Positions 3,847 through 53,836 of a stretch of 64,000 nucleotides of DNA are shown one piece after another. The notes under the pieces were generated by a model. The model ran no database searches, was not told the origin of the DNA, and saw only the letters and a program-made list of their open reading frames with translations. This DNA comes from Lachnospiraceae bacterium MA2020 (lineage in GTDB: Bacteria > Bacillota > Clostridia > Lachnospirales > Lachnospiraceae): the NCBI GenBank assembly GCA_000746015.1, contig JQKK01000003.1:1-64000 (forward strand), written 5' to 3'. Numbering within the stretch: the first letter of the stretch is position 1; each line of letters opens with the position of its first letter. The position numbers and the translations under genes were made by a program.

Positions 3847-6822
3847 ATGTCAAACATCGAAGAATTAAAACGCGGCCTCGAGACAGCATACATTAACGGG
3901 TCTGTTGCATCTGAAATCAAGTATAGACCGCAGTTTGTTTCTAATAATTACAAAGAAGGAAAGAAGGTTCTCTCATCTATTGAAGATGAGCTTTTGAGAT
4001 GTGATAAGTTTCAGATAAGTGTAGCTTTTATAACAATGGGAGGTATTACTCCTTTGTTGCAAACTCTTCAGGAGCTTGAGAGAAAAGGTGTACCTGGCGA
4101 AATTCTTACAACAAATTATTTGAACTTTAGTGATCCAAAGGCAATAAAGAAGCTTAATGAATTAAAAAATATTAAGCTTAAAATGTATGATGTAGAGGCA
4201 GCAGAAGAGGGCTTTCATACTAAAGGATATATTTTCAAGAAAGATGAGATTTATAGAATTATCATTGGCAGTTCTAATATTACGAGTGCCGCACTTACAC
4301 ACAATAAAGAATGGAATACTAAGATAGTTTCTACTACAGAGGGTGAAGAGGCTATTGAGATTCTTAATGAGTATAACGACTTATGGAATTCAAAATATGC
4401 TTTAAGTTTCGATGATTTTTATGAGAATTACAAGACTAAATATGAAATCATAAAAAAGCAGCGTGCAGCGGCTAAACAGGATAATACTATTGAACTTGAA
4501 AAGTATAATTTAAAGCCTAACAGCATGCAGGTTGGATTTATTACAAACCTTAAAAAGATTGTAGACTCAGGAGAGGATAGGGCCTTACTTATTTCTGCAA
4601 CAGGAACAGGTAAGACTTATGCTTCTGCTTTTGCCATGCGTGAACTTGGATTTAAGAGAGTACTCTTTTTGGTTCATAGAGGTCAGTTAGCAAGGCAGAC
4701 TAAGAAATCATATTCACGCGTCTTTGATGGTAAGATTAGTATGGGACTGGCCGGAGCTGGCAATGATGAATATGATAAGGATTACATATTTGCCACTGTT
4801 CAGACATTAAGCCGAGATGAGCACCTGTGTAAATTTGCAGTAGATCATTTTGATTGTATTGTGTTGGACGAAGCTCATCATGTTCCGGCTGATACATATC
4901 AGAAGATAATGAATCATTTCAAACCTAAGCTCTGGCTTGGAATGACCGCTACGCCTGACAAGAGAGATGACAATATCGAAGGAAGAAATGTCTATGAGAT
5001 ATTTAATCATCAGATAGCATATGAGATCAGATTACAGCAGGCTATGGAAGAGGACTTATTATGCCCATTCCATTATTTTGGAATTAATGATATTTCTATC
5101 GATTCAGATGAATTTATTGATAGGGCTGATTTTTCAATGCTTACATCGGACGAAAGAGTAAAGCACATAGTTGAGCAGGCAAACTATTTTGGACATAGCG
5201 GAGAACGTGTTAAGGGGCTCATTTTCTGCAGCAGTATAAAAGAATCTGAAGTTCTGTCAGATAAATTTAATCAGACTATAAATCCTGAAACAGGAAAAAA
5301 GTACAGAACAATAGCTTTGAATGGAAGTGCGAATGAGGAACAAAGAGCTGATGCTTTTGAAAGACTGGCTATGGATGAGACTGAAGATGGTTTAGAACTA
5401 TTAGATTATATTTTTTCAGTTGAAATACTTAATGAGGGTGTTGATATTATAGAAGTTAACCAAGTCATTATGCTTCGTCCTACACAATCGCCTATAGTTT
5501 TTATACAGCAGTTAGGCAGAGGTCTTAGAAAGGCTGATGGGAAAGAGTACGTTGTAATTCTTGATTTTATTGGCAATTACAATAATAATTTCATGATTCC
5601 AATTGCACTTTCGGGAGATAGGACATACAACAAGGATAATATAAGACGCTACATTCTTGAAGGTGTGCGTGTTATACCAGGTGCATCAACAGTCCATTTT
5701 GATGAGATTAGTAGAAAGAAGATTTTTTCTTCTATTGATAATGCCAATTTTAGCGATATTAAGCTTATCAGAGAAAATTACACCAATCTTAAGAATAAAC
5801 TGGGAAGGATACCTCGTCTTACTGATTTTGATGAACACGGTGAGATGGATGTACTTCGCATATTTGATAATAAAAGTCTGGGATCTTACTATAAATTCTT
5901 GGTGAAATATGAGAAGGACTATAAGATTCGTCTGTCTGAAGATGAAGAGAAGATGGTTGAATTTATATCTGTGAAGCTGGCGAATGGTAAACGTATCCAG
6001 GAACTGCAGCTTTTAAAGAGAATTCTTGCGTATTCAAAAGGTCTTTCAAAAATGGGTTTGTTTTCAGCACTATCGAAGGATCTGGAAAATGAATACTCAA
6101 AAACTATGGATACTAATCAGCGTAAGAACATTGTAAATGTAATGACCAATAAATTCCCTGCCGGTTCTAATAAGAAAACTTATTCATCATGTATATTTAT
6201 TGAGAAGAATGACCAGGACTACATACCAACCAATACATTGCTACAGATGCTGAGTAATGATGATTTTTACAATGTTATTGAGGAGTTGGTAGAATTTGGT
6301 ATTTCCCGTTTTAAGCAGAATTATAGCGATTCTTATGAAAAGACGGATTTAGTACTGTATCAGAAGTATACTTATGAAGATGTTTGCAGGCTTTTGAACT
6401 GGGAGTCAAATGAAGTGCCTTTAAATATTGGTGGATATAAATTTGATAAGAAAACCAAAACTTTTCCGGTATTTATAAACTATGAAAAGGCTGATGATAT
6501 CAGTGATACTACAAAGTACGAAGATCATTTCACAAGCAATCGATCTCTGATAGCCATATCAAAATCGGGCAGAAGTTTAACATCGGAGGATGTTCAGAAT
6601 TTCCTAAAATCAGAAGAAAGAGGAATTCAGGTAGAGCTCTTTGTCAGAAAGAATAAAGATGATAAGGTTTCAAAGGAATTCTATTATCTTGGACATATGA
6701 AGGCAACTGGGCAGGCAAGGGAATTTGTGATGGCCAATACTGATAAAACTGCTGTAGAAATTGAATGGCGTCTGGATAAGCCAGTCAGGGAAGATATATA
6801 TGAGTATCTGCTCAATGAATAG
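3847..6822 (+). CDS. PLD-like nuclease / DEAD-box helicase / DUF3427 protein
   Basis: 991 residues in three parts. The N-terminus (about 30-200) is a phospholipase-D-like nuclease domain with HTKGYIF at about 123 and a downstream GSSNIT, the HxK...GSxN signature. Next comes an SF2 helicase: Walker A SATGTGKT at about 249, DEAHH at about 340, TATP at about 366, and motif VI QQLGRGLRK at about 553. The C-terminus (about 690-985) matches DUF3427. These proteins are predicted ATP-driven DNA-processing nucleases, found in accessory and defence loci. The gene is co-directional with the GIY-YIG gene, and Nudix follows 13 bp after the stop. All key motifs look intact. Confidence 0.85.
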   Translation: MSNIEELKRGLETAYINGSVASEIKYRPQFVSNNYKEGKKVLSSIEDELLRCDKFQISVAFITMGGITPLLQTLQELERKGVPGEILTTNYLNFSDPKAIKKLNELKNIKLKMYDVEAAEEGFHTKGYIFKKDEIYRIIIGSSNITSAALTHNKEWNTKIVSTTEGEEAIEILNEYNDLWNSKYALSFDDFYENYKTKYEIIKKQRAAAKQDNTIELEKYNLKPNSMQVGFITNLKKIVDSGEDRALLISATGTGKTYASAFAMRELGFKRVLFLVHRGQLARQTKKSYSRVFDGKISMGLAGAGNDEYDKDYIFATVQTLSRDEHLCKFAVDHFDCIVLDEAHHVPADTYQKIMNHFKPKLWLGMTATPDKRDDNIEGRNVYEIFNHQIAYEIRLQQAMEEDLLCPFHYFGINDISIDSDEFIDRADFSMLTSDERVKHIVEQANYFGHSGERVKGLIFCSSIKESEVLSDKFNQTINPETGKKYRTIALNGSANEEQRADAFERLAMDETEDGLELLDYIFSVEILNEGVDIIEVNQVIMLRPTQSPIVFIQQLGRGLRKADGKEYVVILDFIGNYNNNFMIPIALSGDRTYNKDNIRRYILEGVRVIPGASTVHFDEISRKKIFSSIDNANFSDIKLIRENYTNLKNKLGRIPRLTDFDEHGEMDVLRIFDNKSLGSYYKFLVKYEKDYKIRLSEDEEKMVEFISVKLANGKRIQELQLLKRILAYSKGLSKMGLFSALSKDLENEYSKTMDTNQRKNIVNVMTNKFPAGSNKKTYSSCIFIEKNDQDYIPTNTLLQMLSNDDFYNVIEELVEFGISRFKQNYSDSYEKTDLVLYQKYTYEDVCRLLNWESNEVPLNIGGYKFDKKTKTFPVFINYEKADDISDTTKYEDHFTSNRSLIAISKSGRSLTSEDVQNFLKSEERGIQVELFVRKNKDDKVSKEFYYLGHMKATGQAREFVMANTDKTAVEIEWRLDKPVREDIYEYLLNE

Positions 6823-50475: not shown

Positions 50476-51357
50476 ATGGAAAAGAGACCAAGAGATATGC
50501 GCATGGATAACATCAAAGCACTACTTATCATATTAGTAGTGCTTGGGCATGCGCTTGAGTTATTTTTGAAAAGTGGCAGCGTTAAAACGATATATAAGCT
50601 TATATATTCGTTTCACATGCCGCTTTTCATTTTTATTTCCGGATACTTTGCAAAATTTAATATTAAGAAGATACTGATCGGACTGGCTGTGCCGTATGTT
50701 GTTTTTCAGAGTATCTATATTTTTTATGTGGATTATATACTGGATATCAAAAAGAATGTTTCTTTTAGCTATTCACAGCCGTATTGGATCATGTGGTACA
50801 TGATGGCTATGATAGTCTGGAGTTTATCTGTTCCTATCATTTCACTTGGAAACAGATGGGTTCATGCGTTGATGGTAGCTGCAGCGTTTACGCTTAGTAT
50901 AGCTGTGGGATATGTGCACGCTATAGGTATGAAATATACACTATCAAGGATTTTTGTGTATTTTCCGTTTTTTATGCTTGGCCATTATTTTGCCGATATC
51001 ATGAAGAATAAAGAAAAACGTGATGAACTGTTGTCCATTTACAATAAATATAAAGCGCCTATCTGCCTTGGCAGTGCGGCAGCATTTGGTGCAGCAGTGG
51101 GGCTGATGGTTGAATATACTAAGAAGTATTCTTATGTATGGCTTTATGAGTGCGCTCCATATAAAGTATCACATGAGACACCTATTATCAGAGCGGCGCA
51201 TGCTGTTGTAGCTCTTATATGTATTGTTTATATCTACATCCTGACGCCGAATATAAAACTAAACCTCTTTTCAAAGCTTGGGGCAAAAACGAAGGGTGTT
51301 TATTTAGGACATGGATTTATAATACTAGCTCTCAAAAATATGATGGGGCTTATATAA
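50476..51357 (+). CDS. acyltransferase 3 family membrane protein
   Basis: 293 residues with eight to ten helices. MRMDNIKALLIILVVLGHALELF matches the start of the Acyl_transf_3 domain with the conserved His, and GVYLGHGFIILALKN is the final helix. Such proteins O-acetylate surface polysaccharides or similar substrates. Substrate unknown. It starts 14 bp after mgtE. Confidence 0.8.
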   Translation: MEKRPRDMRMDNIKALLIILVVLGHALELFLKSGSVKTIYKLIYSFHMPLFIFISGYFAKFNIKKILIGLAVPYVVFQSIYIFYVDYILDIKKNVSFSYSQPYWIMWYMMAMIVWSLSVPIISLGNRWVHALMVAAAFTLSIAVGYVHAIGMKYTLSRIFVYFPFFMLGHYFADIMKNKEKRDELLSIYNKYKAPICLGSAAAFGAAVGLMVEYTKKYSYVWLYECAPYKVSHETPIIRAAHAVVALICIVYIYILTPNIKLNLFSKLGAKTKGVYLGHGFIILALKNMMGLI

Positions 51358-51370
51358 GGCGGTGAATGCA

Positions 51371-51613
51371 ATGAGAGAAATGGAATTTAAGATGGAAATT
51401 AAATATGATCATATAGTCCCGGGAGCAAAGGTCAAGGTTGAAGAGTCCGAGCTTCAGGATGGACTTGTGGTCTATTATACTATAATACCTGCAATAGCAA
51501 TGTCCGGTAACTTCAGACGGCAGGAGGCATTAAAGAACTTCGAGGGCGAAGTTACAAAGGTCCGCGATGGTGACGGCGGCGCATATTATGTGACGGTGGC
51601 TTTTGATGAATGA
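51371..51613 (+). CDS. small hypothetical protein
   Basis: 80 residues from ATG 51371, eight bases after AAGGCGG; the GTG at 51362 lies inside that ribosome site. The composition is mixed, strand-rich (VPGAKVKVEESELQDGLVVY and AYYVTVAFDE), suggesting a small beta-barrel. No family recognised. The structured repeat element copy A begins four bases after its stop. Confidence 0.55.
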   Translation: MREMEFKMEIKYDHIVPGAKVKVEESELQDGLVVYYTIIPAIAMSGNFRRQEALKNFEGEVTKVRDGDGGAYYVTVAFDE

Positions 51614-51616
51614 AGA

Positions 51617-51925
51617 CGGAAATCTATGGTAGGTATCTTCGCCCGTTTGGCTCAGATACCGTATAGATTTCCGGTGCTTTCGCACGTGGTATGCGATAGT
51701 TTTCAATAACATGACGGCGCAAATGGGGATACACATCCAACGCAACACGGGAAACCGACTTTCCAACGAACTTCCTTTTAACTACGACATAGCACCACAG
51801 ACGATTCACTCAAGATTAAGAGTTCTTCGCCTGTGGTGCAAGTCTACGTAAAAAGTTGATTTCGTTGGGCGGTTTCCAAATGATGTTGCTCTTTGGACAT
51901 GTATCCCCGTTTGCGCCTGATTTTT
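51617..51925 (+). ncRNA. structured element, copy A (three-hairpin RNA-like repeat)
   Basis: Hairpin 1 is 51617-51673 (CGGAAATCTAT with ATAGATTTCCG; inner GGTATC with GATACC). Next is a mini-hairpin GTGC-TTTC-GCAC. Then comes one elongated stem of about 200 nt, 51716-51917, made of a 23-bp base (51716-51738 with 51895-51917), CCAACGAA with TTCGTTGG, GCACCACAG (51792-51800) with CTGTGGTGC (51831-51839), and an ACTC/GAGT tip. TGATTTTTG follows. A diverged copy with the same layout lies inverted at 53489-53788. Confidence 0.75.
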
Positions 51926-51967
51926 GCCTTATAGCGTAAAAATATGCTATTTGATATAAGCTGTTTG

Positions 51968-51996
51968 TTGAAATGGGCAAATTGAAATGATATAAT
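51968..51996 (+). promoter_or_regulatory. strong sigma-A promoter in the long intergenic region
   Basis: TTGAAA (51968-51973), exactly 17 bp, TATAAT (51991-51996). No gene starts for another 318 bp, so the product is either a small RNA ending near 52144 or a long leader for the zinc-ribbon gene. Confidence 0.65.
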
Positions 51997-52002
51997 TAAT
52001 TG

Positions 52003-52144
52003 CATGAAAGGTGTCCGGAATATACGATTCTATAAGGACTGAAATTTTTGGGGAGAAAGGGTATTGTGATTGTCGTTTTTGGCAGAATTAAATATACTGA
52101 TGCTTAAAAGGTATCTCTGTTCATTATAGACAGGGGTGCTTTTT
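52003..52144 (+). ncRNA. candidate small RNA between promoter and terminator
   Basis: A start about 7 bp after the TATAAT at 51991 and a terminator-like hairpin (AAAAGGTATCTCTGT at 52106-52120 with ACAGGGGTGCTTTT ending at 52144, then more T) define about 140 nt without an ORF. No known RNA class was recognised. The rest of the gap to 52313 is AT-rich with nothing clear. Confidence 0.35.
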
Positions 52145-52313
52145 GCATTTAAAAATGTATCTAGTGCAGTAGGCAAGGATATATATTAGAGTTTTTAATA
52201 AATATATAGCATAAATTATACAGGTGGAGGTGTATAGGATTTATGGATGGTTAAATTATTTTATGTAATAAATCATGGTAGAAAATATTAGGGTATTGGA
52301 AAGGGGGATAGAA

Positions 52314-52709
52314 ATGAAAAAATGTCCAAGATGCGGGGAATTGCTGGGGGATAATGTGGACAGGTGTTTTGAATGTTCTTTTGACTTCAATAATCCACAT
52401 GATGCTTCTGAATTAAGAAGATCAAAGACAGAAGAGTTGAAAAGAAAATGTGCAGATATTATTGCTTTAAACGATTGCTATGAATATGATGTGGTTACTT
52501 TATGTGATAACAATACAGGGATGCTTGATATAAGTGAATTAAAATCTACATTATCTGCTCATGCTAATAATGGATGGCGTCTTGTAAGCTTAACAACAAA
52601 TGAAATTGGCAGGAATTCTTCTAGAATAGGGTCTTATGGTACTAATGCAACAATAGATCAGACCATTCTTATTTTTGAAAGATGTATCAGGAGATATAAT
52701 ATGTCATGA
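52314..52709 (+). CDS. zinc-ribbon plus DUF4177-like protein
   Basis: 131 residues from ATG 52314, with AAAGGGGG seven bases upstream; an earlier in-frame ATG at 52275 has no such site. Residues 1-22 form a zinc ribbon (CPRCG...CFECSF). Residues about 50-125 resemble DUF4177: YEYDVVTL, LSAHANNGWRLVSLTT, IDQTILIFER. Function unknown; such proteins are small and often accessory. Codon use is more AT-rich than in neighbouring core genes. Confidence 0.65.
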   Translation: MKKCPRCGELLGDNVDRCFECSFDFNNPHDASELRRSKTEELKRKCADIIALNDCYEYDVVTLCDNNTGMLDISELKSTLSAHANNGWRLVSLTTNEIGRNSSRIGSYGTNATIDQTILIFERCIRRYNMS

Positions 52710-52847
52710 TTGTCTTTATAATTTTTGTATGTTTGCAATTGTGAACATAATTATAATTAGATCTCACGTTACTTTCAACTACTGTTACTATAGACATAAT
52801 ATGTGATATGAGAATTTTTAAATAGTAGAGGAGGAAAATAAATATAA

Positions 52848-53429
52848 ATGAAGAAAAGGATATTTGGGGTAATTACATTAAGCATTGCATTATTAATTGG
52901 ATTATTTGTTATATCAGGCTGTTCAAATGATATAAAAAAGGAGTTTTCAGTAAATAAAAATAAAGAAGTTTCATAAAATGAAAAAACAGAAGGAAAAAAT
53001 TTAGCGGTAACATTTACAGAATTTGAAACACCAAAAGATGATTTGGGAGAGGGGTCCTACAGATTAAATTCTGATTCTCCTTATGAATATACAAAAGAGG
53101 GATATGTGCATCGCTTAGCTCATTTCTCTGTTGAAAACATTGGGAAAAAAGAAGTTAGTATCAATATTAAAGCTACTCTGCAATATGGAGATGGATATAC
53201 ATTTACTCCTGAGAAACAATGGTTTCATGTAGATGATATTTATAGAGCTGATGGAACAAAAATAGAAGGTGGTTCTTGGGTAAACAATGCAGAGGAGATT
53301 TCTCCGTTTGATAAGCCGAAAGAATGTATAAAAGACTTTATGATTCCTAAAGAAGTGGCAGAAGGACAGGAAGAAATGTCAATCGTTTTCGAATATGATA
53401 ACAAAAAGTTTATATCTATTATTAAATAG
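52848..53429 (+). pseudogene. lipoprotein gene interrupted by an in-frame TAA
   Basis: ATG 52848 (after GAGGAGG) starts a signal peptide with lipobox ISGC (Cys25). Codon 43 is TAA (52974-52976). The same frame stays open for 150 more codons to TAA at 53429, with a strand-rich domain like DUF4352 lipoproteins (VTFTEFETPKDD, LAHFSVENIGKKEVSIN, MSIVFEYDNKKFISI). The signal peptide and domain belong to one gene split by one nonsense codon. A fresh pseudogene, stop-codon readthrough or a sequencing error would each explain it. Confidence 0.75.
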
Positions 53430-53488
53430 ATATGAAAATGTTTTAATTTAACATGGTTTATCTTATGATCATAGAATATAGTATCAGT

Positions 53489-53788
53489 AAAAACCAGAAC
53501 TGCCAGCAATGTTTTTCTGGAACATCCGCATGTCGAGCGCTCAGTTGAGATCCACTTCGTATGGAGACTGGTGCCGCAAGCGAAGAGCTCTTGATCATGA
53601 GCGAATCGCTTGCGGTGCGTAGTCGTAGTAGAAGTTAGCTCAACGATAAAAGCGCGAGCTGGGATGTGAAAGAAAGCGTTGCTGGCAGTTCGTGGATGTA
53701 ATGATACGCTTGGCATAATACGTGCGTAAGCACCGGAAATCTATATGGTATCCGAGCTGAAGGCGAGGATACCTACAATAGATTTCCG
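53489..53788 (-). ncRNA. structured element, copy B (three-hairpin RNA-like repeat)
   Basis: Read on the minus strand. Hairpin 1 is 53788-53734 with the same CGGAAATCTAT/ATAGATTTCCG stem and GGTATC/GATACC, then GTGC-TTAC-GCAC. A long stem, 53691-53497, follows with a perfect 13-bp base (GAACTGCCAGCAA), GTTGAG with CTCAAC, ACTTC with GAAGT, CCGCAAGCGA with TCGCTTGCGG, a GCTC/GAGC tip, and TTTTT at the end (53493-53489). Stem sequences differ from copy A, but pairing is kept. It starts just beyond the rpsT terminator. Confidence 0.75.
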
Positions 53789-53800
53789 TCATAAAATACA

Positions 53801-53836
53801 AAAAAGACTGATGTTAGAGGGGACATCAGTCTTTTT
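53801..53836. terminator. rpsT terminator
   Basis: Perfect 14-bp stem AAAAAGACTGATGT with ACATCAGTCTTTTT. Symmetric A and T runs make it work on both strands. Confidence 0.9.

Follow-up and report, generated by a model that had tools for sequence, protein, structure and literature searches.

The window analysed here is a stretch of 64,000 nt from Lachnospiraceae bacterium MA2020 (contig JQKK01000003.1, positions 1 to 64,000), in which two inverted copies of a structured element, A and B, lie between positions 51,617 and 53,788. The long hairpin (LH) of about 206 nt contained in both is, in our view, probably a non-autonomous, dispersed long palindromic repeat of Lachnospiraceae, similar to the repetitive extragenic palindromes (REP) and REPINs but several times longer. 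Copies of LH share their unit ends, foot tags, layout and siting, are present at sites from which they are missing in relatives, and differ in their cores at fixed stems. The original prediction, made from the letters of the window alone, had put forward an RNA under structural selection and had named a non-autonomous palindromic repeat as its main alternative. The covariation behind the former proved to be real, but it is the latter that is favoured by the dispersal, the inverted doublets, the REP-like tags and the core differences from locus to locus.

Copy A (51617-51925, + strand) and copy B (53788-53489, - strand) were both confirmed in the layout first described for them. These strands (+ for copy A, - for copy B) are called here the reader's strand and the opposite one the structured strand, on which the 5' and 3' feet of LH are named. 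Minimum free energies (MFE) of -139.3 and -125.6 kcal/mol were obtained for A and B (z-scores -10.7 and -11.0), and dinucleotide shuffles as stable as the real copy were found in 0/100 cases for each. The stems quoted as compensatory are also real, with GCACCACAG/CTGTGGTGC in copy A against CCGCAAGCGA/TCGCTTGCGG in copy B in the long stem, and GGCGCAAA against GAACTGCCAGCAA at its base. The LH of copy A extends over 51712..51920 on the - strand, taken as structured (reader-strand ends TGACGG...CCTGA), as delimited by the fold and by the match to our LH covariance models R1 and R2 (L029 11710-11925, corresponding to window 51709-51924; 170.9 bits). By the same means, the LH of copy B was placed at 53494..53695 on the + strand (R2 match 53489-53698, 160.6 bits), with CAG at its 5' foot and CGTG, a variant of CGTC, at its 3' foot.

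The claim of a single element of about 300 nt had to be given up, as this length comprises two units, LH and a module made of the GTGC mini-hairpin and hairpin 1, and most LH copies lack hairpin 1. Among 53 sources searched, the module (model R3) accompanies LH at four loci only, all in the window's own genome, G000: A, B, C2:166.8k and C14:102.4k. Hairpin 1 of copy A lies at 51615..51673 on the - strand (R3 match 51612-51703, fold), with its CGTC foot at 51618-51615, and next to it is the mini-hairpin at 51674..51685, which reads GTGC-GAAA-GCAC on the - strand. In copy B, the mini-hairpin GTGC-GTAA-GCAC with its GNRA-type loop (53722..53733) and hairpin 1 (53734..53790, end CCGTC; R3 match 53704-53793, 96.0 bits, fold) are located on the + strand. 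Hairpin 1 had been described as conserved, which applies to the arms of A and B (51615-51694 and 53713-53790, hairpin 1 plus GTGC module; 86% identity) but not to the C14 copy, the stem of which is GGACAATTC/GAATTGTCC. Similarly, the position directly behind a gene end holds for copy A, where the hairpin 1 stem begins 3 nt and the CGTC foot 1 nt past the stop codon (51611-51613) of an 83-aa gene, but not for copy B, from which the gene is separated by the rpsT terminator (53801..53836, - strand; an inverted repeat with 14-nt arms, 100% complementary) that lies outside the element. The T-run noted behind the long stem is not general: on the reader's strand TTTT follows the LH foot in 10/36 copies of this genus, on the other strand in 3/36.

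A dispersed family with tagged feet

Covariance-model searches detected LH in other genomes, with differences that are largely compensatory. In G000 itself, 13 places were found, to which BLAST added two fragments (C6:13.5k and C13:90.4k). Model R1, built from 8 copies, matched 9/61 genomes including its own, all of the same genus, and R2, built from 26 copies, matched 27/397 sampled genomes of the family, again including its own, in 24/334 genera when at most six candidates were scored per genome. When nine genomes were scored more deeply, each had between 7 and 38 matches, a number that includes shadows on the opposite strand. The exact core pattern was matched by no fewer than 119 stretches from named genomes, of which 80 were listed. 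Most of these 80 carry Lachnospiraceae labels (or Dorea, Hespellia, Oliverpabstia), the remainder of them being assigned to 'Eubacterium', Clostridiaceae, Clostridiales or Clostridia metagenome-assembled genomes. Carriage of LH by phages was considered and rejected, as the pattern matched no viral contig searched.

In agreement with the designation of the element as unrecognised, no Rfam family reached its gathering score in the window, and the same scan of 14 element-bearing loci returned only tRNA and RAGATH-18, in each case at a distance from LH (the latter at L096 1605-1678 in G033). Four weak matches to known RNAs in a lax scan (E 1.4-3.3) were treated as chance, and HEARO, in which a tetranucleotide lies beside a hairpin foot, or another known RNA was dropped as the identity of LH in the absence of a gathering match. 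No described family was recognised as LH in Lachnospiraceae by a full-text literature search. In a major bacterial family of gut and rumen, LH is a family of repeats that shows strong structural covariation and has no Rfam 15 gathering match.

The borders of the unit are best defined in G440, in which the 5' end is CAG in 15 and the 3' end CCGTCA in 13 of 16 copies (the deviants being L194, L196 and L197); those in G031 and G014 are similar. In 62 copies of five groups, the vicinity of the 3' foot contains CGTC in 53/62 and that of the opposite foot in 7/62. CAG accompanies the 5' foot in 59/62; a tag of three letters would turn up by chance alone in roughly every second 45-nt stretch of this kind. 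Here and in the counts on doublets, siting and strand energies, orthologous and near-duplicate copies are included, and the copies are not independent. After removal of opposite-strand shadow matches, most of the 160 listed LH copies of ten genomes are single; of the pairs at most 2.5 kb apart, 12/13 are inverted with CGTC outward, as are all eight at most 1 kb apart and also copies A and B. The binomial p of 6e-7 for this orientation is too low, since one or more doublets are orthologous between G162 and G454 and were counted twice.

With genes called by a simple rule (open reading frames (ORFs) of 85 aa or more, LH itself masked), 64/95 CGTC feet have an opposite-strand gene that terminates towards them, at a median distance of 29.5 nt (37/64 within 40 nt). 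On the other side of LH, a gene end points to the foot in 62/96 copies, the median distance being 188.5 nt (13/62 within 40 nt). LH copies accordingly lie with their CGTC end a short way past stop codons and prefer one orientation. All four combinations of neighbour orientations are represented (40, 24, 21 and 10 copies), and the neighbours are many and varied.

Several of these properties are shared with REP/REPIN sequences, which are multi-copy extragenic palindromes with compensatory changes (PMC3733652, PMC3116915). LH likewise has a tetranucleotide tag at one foot (CGTC instead of GTAG), forms inverted doublets and is extragenic, mostly downstream of genes. The differences are its length of about 206 nt, compared to 20-40 bp for REP, the arrangement of the tags, as CGTC-type REPs carry the tag at a single end together with a CCA tail and LH has CGTC after the 3' and CAG before the 5' foot, and the lack of an associated RAYT/Y1 transposase at the level of genomes and of six Y1 loci. 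CGTC-type palindromes are, according to PMC3733652, without a dedicated transposase. A further relative is MRSC-65-2, which according to PMC11109978 is a single long covarying stem, often occurring in dozens of copies per genome, that is regarded as selfish and for which its describers left DNA versus RNA form unresolved. LH is likewise a single long stem with strong covariation and many copies per genome. LH is an object of the same kind as MRSC-65-2, with some differences: the conserved UYCCGG of MRSC-65-2 occurs in 4/62 LH copies on the structured and in 19/62 on the other strand (11 of these from G440), and MRSC-65-2 has been described in diverse phyla, whereas the LH pattern matches listed come from Lachnospiraceae-labelled or unresolved Clostridia records.

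Long CGTC-tagged hairpins of other types were found in the same genomes as LH, namely H2 in G440, H3 in G031 and G014, and hairpin 1 in G000. H2 (L190 2768-3007) is a hairpin of about 230 nt directly upstream of LH, into which the homology continues in about half of the 16 G440 copies. H3 (L104 5761-5990 and other places in G014) measures about 215 nt, is present in many copies and also forms inverted doublets; five H3 pairs at most 1 kb apart among the listed matches have the same outward layout as the LH doublets. In addition, H4 (L104 4592-4737) is a 146-bp palindromic insert in G031 that is missing from the G014 orthologue and has several matches in G033, and a stretch of approximately 90-100 nt flanking LH in G031 (L101, about 4803-4910) is matched dozens of times in G014, G031 and G440.

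Cores, stems and sites

Cores and stems were compared between the copies as a population, from which 11/54 copies without the anchor, including four G358 loci, were dropped. Between different G162 copies, the outer stems have a mean identity of 0.47, which is the level of shuffled sequence (0.46), although within a single copy the outer 25 nt are paired to 90% on average; one pair of G162 paralogues has a core identity of 0.99 and a stem identity of 0.42. Orthologous loci in G162 and G454 gave seven matches, two of which (L205 vs L230 and L231) represent neighbours and were not considered further, leaving five. In two of these (L207/L242 and L214/L233) the stem was kept (1.00 and 0.96) and the apical core was changed (0.65 and 0.72), as predicted by an exchange of cores through gene conversion, and not easily explained by a constraint on the core. 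Two further orthologues differ in both stem and core, with 9/13 and 6/9 changed pairs still paired, and the fifth is identical. The element is more diverged than the better-matching flank in four of the five and less in one, in a comparison of locally aligned flanks with globally aligned elements that favours the flanks. If cores are swapped between copies by DNA recombination, paired changes alone do not prove selection on an RNA; were such exchange general, LH would offer a natural test of covariation from recombination versus RNA selection, and a caveat for RNA discovery.

LH is missing in relatives at the sites G31_f (in G014), L185 (G014 and G031), L194 (G031) and L196 (G031), where the surroundings of the missing copy differ as well. 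At the G440 site L194, both flanks align with G031, which carries a short terminator hairpin in place of LH. A remnant consisting of foot stem and CGTC only was kept by G440 at the G31_a site, and two deletion derivatives (C6:13517 and one on C11 of G440) likewise retain the foot stem and have lost the apex. No match to the G31_e site was found in the relatives compared.

From these observations we infer the following course of events. A folded single strand, either ssDNA at replication forks or RNA, would be recognised through tag and hairpin by a mobilising or processing enzyme, and LH copies would spread now and then, or rarely, some of them as passengers of insertion sequences (IS) of the ISLre2 type. 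After spreading, copies may exchange their cores by recombination, and this exchange, together with arm-to-arm correction or selection, would preserve the pairing of the stem despite the drift of its sequence. Copies A and B would accordingly represent two LH copies pointing outward around an insert of small genes, and each of them would be linked to a further hairpin with the CGTC tag. A more specific version, in which LH is a two-part element whose conserved core moves between locus-specific self-complementary stems recognised by CAG and CGTC, and in which the tag shared by the otherwise unrelated hairpins LH, H2, H3 and hairpin 1 implies one hairpin-processing enzyme, is speculative and in our opinion rather improbable. 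The shared tag could nevertheless help to find the enzyme that acts on CGTC-type palindromes.

A number of findings weigh against the interpretation of LH as a mobile repeat with exchangeable cores. Unrelated stems are not a general feature, given that G440 paralogues have a stem identity of 0.76 and that core (0.96) and stem (0.85) are both alike in a pair of G454 copies separated by 5 kb, and the G162 paralogues could also be explained by a constraint on the cores of very old copies. Core sequence motifs are shared between genera according to alignment and pattern matches, which favours a function, since pure homogenisation of a palindrome would erase them. A clean insertion junction of a single LH was seen at 0/6 sites examined, and an exact CGTC at the 3' foot in just 4/10 copies of G000. 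No mobilising gene was identified in the searches run. Y1_Tnp is present in 17/27 LH-bearing and 202/370 other genomes, i.e. without association, and G321, estimated to be 100% complete, has LH and no Y1. LH resembles the IS200/IS605-type ssDNA elements, which have a tetranucleotide beside the hairpin foot (PMC8266576), but it differs from them in this lack of a genome-level association with Y1. Six loci around Y1 genes were free of R2 matches at E 0.05.

Covariation and the folded strand

The main rival of the dispersed repeat is a functional structured RNA, such as a 3'-UTR (untranslated region) element, a terminator or a stand-alone RNA, that was copied around the genome and whose pairing is kept by selection. 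We consider this explanation unlikely, though better placed than the other rivals. It is supported by the covariation: in an alignment of 26 copies made with MAFFT and not fitted to the structure (32 forward-strand matches, minus six near-duplicate, chimeric or weak rows), double changes occurred in 28/33 pairs and 95.7% of the cells were paired, values that were reached by 0/500 shuffles and compared to at most 43.0% paired cells in slid structures. Core exchange would, however, yield paired changes without any selection on RNA. An RNA function, for example at the 3' end of transcripts, is compatible with the siting of LH: in 62/96 copies LH is preceded by a gene on the non-reader strand, and a short terminator hairpin occupies the site of the G440 L194 copy in G031. 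Opposed to this are the lack of a constant gene association, with all four neighbour orientations represented, and the variable number of matches per genome, which ranges from 1 (at most six candidates scored) to 38 (shadows included).

The strand bias is also in favour of an RNA, and it contradicts the assumption that the reader's strand is the structured one. In 62 rows of an alignment that was fitted to the model and hence leans to the model's strand (7/69 shadow rows dropped), the consensus pairs on the non-reader strand comprise 105 G.U and 26 A.C, and with an alignment fitted to the reader's strand the ratio of 59 vs 30 again favours the non-reader strand. By RNA fold energies the latter is also more stable in 79/86 copies, and the loop of the downstream GTGC-NNNN-GCAC mini-hairpin is a GNRA tetraloop on this strand in 3/4 copies. 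In free MFE folds, by contrast, G.U pairs are equally frequent on both strands (212 vs 213), which speaks against the RNA. The evidence being mixed, the folded strand is probably the one opposite to that first read.

The window site and insertion sequences

In G015, only a terminator separates the 83-aa gene from rpsT, so that the whole stretch 51614..53798 (approximate borders) is extra in the window. It could therefore be regarded as a single composite mobile element that has hairpin 1 for its terminal inverted repeat and carries the two small genes as cargo, and the outer ends GACGG...CCGTC as well as the recurrence of inverted doublets fit this idea. The region between the copies (51921..53493) contains a DUF4177/zinc-ribbon ORF (52275-52709, +) and a stop-interrupted lipoprotein-like reading frame, and no transposase or recombinase was seen among its ORFs. 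Moreover, the LH of copy A is 95% identical to C3:85.9k and that of copy B has its best other match in C2:166.8k (76%); the two thus belong to different subtypes and were probably not made by one duplication. As, in addition, no convincing target duplication was visible by eye and other wide doublets enclose ordinary genes, a composite element appears quite improbable.

Even less credit is given to LH being the 3' region of an IS with solo copies as its remnants. G033 harbours six near-identical (>99.9%) IS copies of about 2.37 kb (L094-L099) with LH inside a long non-coding region; their transposase matches UPF0236 (PF06782), and we take the type to be ISLre2. A seventh LH copy of G033 and C3:123.1k of G000 share the same IS end, and these and the six copies are the only ones among those compared in which LH is surrounded by IS ends. 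The unit borders largely refute this origin: the solo copies (G031, G014 and roughly every second one in G440) have no IS ends and share nothing past the unit of about 206 nt, and the other G440 copies continue into the second hairpin and not into IS ends. In G033, LH travels as a passenger of the ISLre2-type IS. An origin of the palindromes by chance, within low-complexity intergenic sequence, found no support, is refuted by the fold z-scores, the homologues and the covariation, and can be practically disregarded.

Further genes were observed in the vicinity of LH copies. An IS605-like ORF pair (Y1 transposase and TnpB-like) is located at L398 2227-4040 in G086, and an LH follows its second ORF at a distance of about 0.3 kb, a proximity that can be due to chance given 4 Y1 and 18 LH matches in 3.8 Mb. 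On contig C3 of G000, a PDDEXK_2 nuclease gene (L025 3536-4372) lies between two LH copies; a link of LH to PD-(D/E)XK (Rpn-like) nucleases was rejected, as one of the six matches in the genome, of which four were over the cut-off, adjoins LH copies. In the window, the lipoprotein-like frame (52849-53429) has an in-frame stop near 52975, downstream of which it weakly matches DUF4352. An Acyltransferase_3 gene (50476-51357), missing from G015, is situated between the 83-aa gene and a gene that is presumably mgtE-like, the latter two being adjacent in G015.

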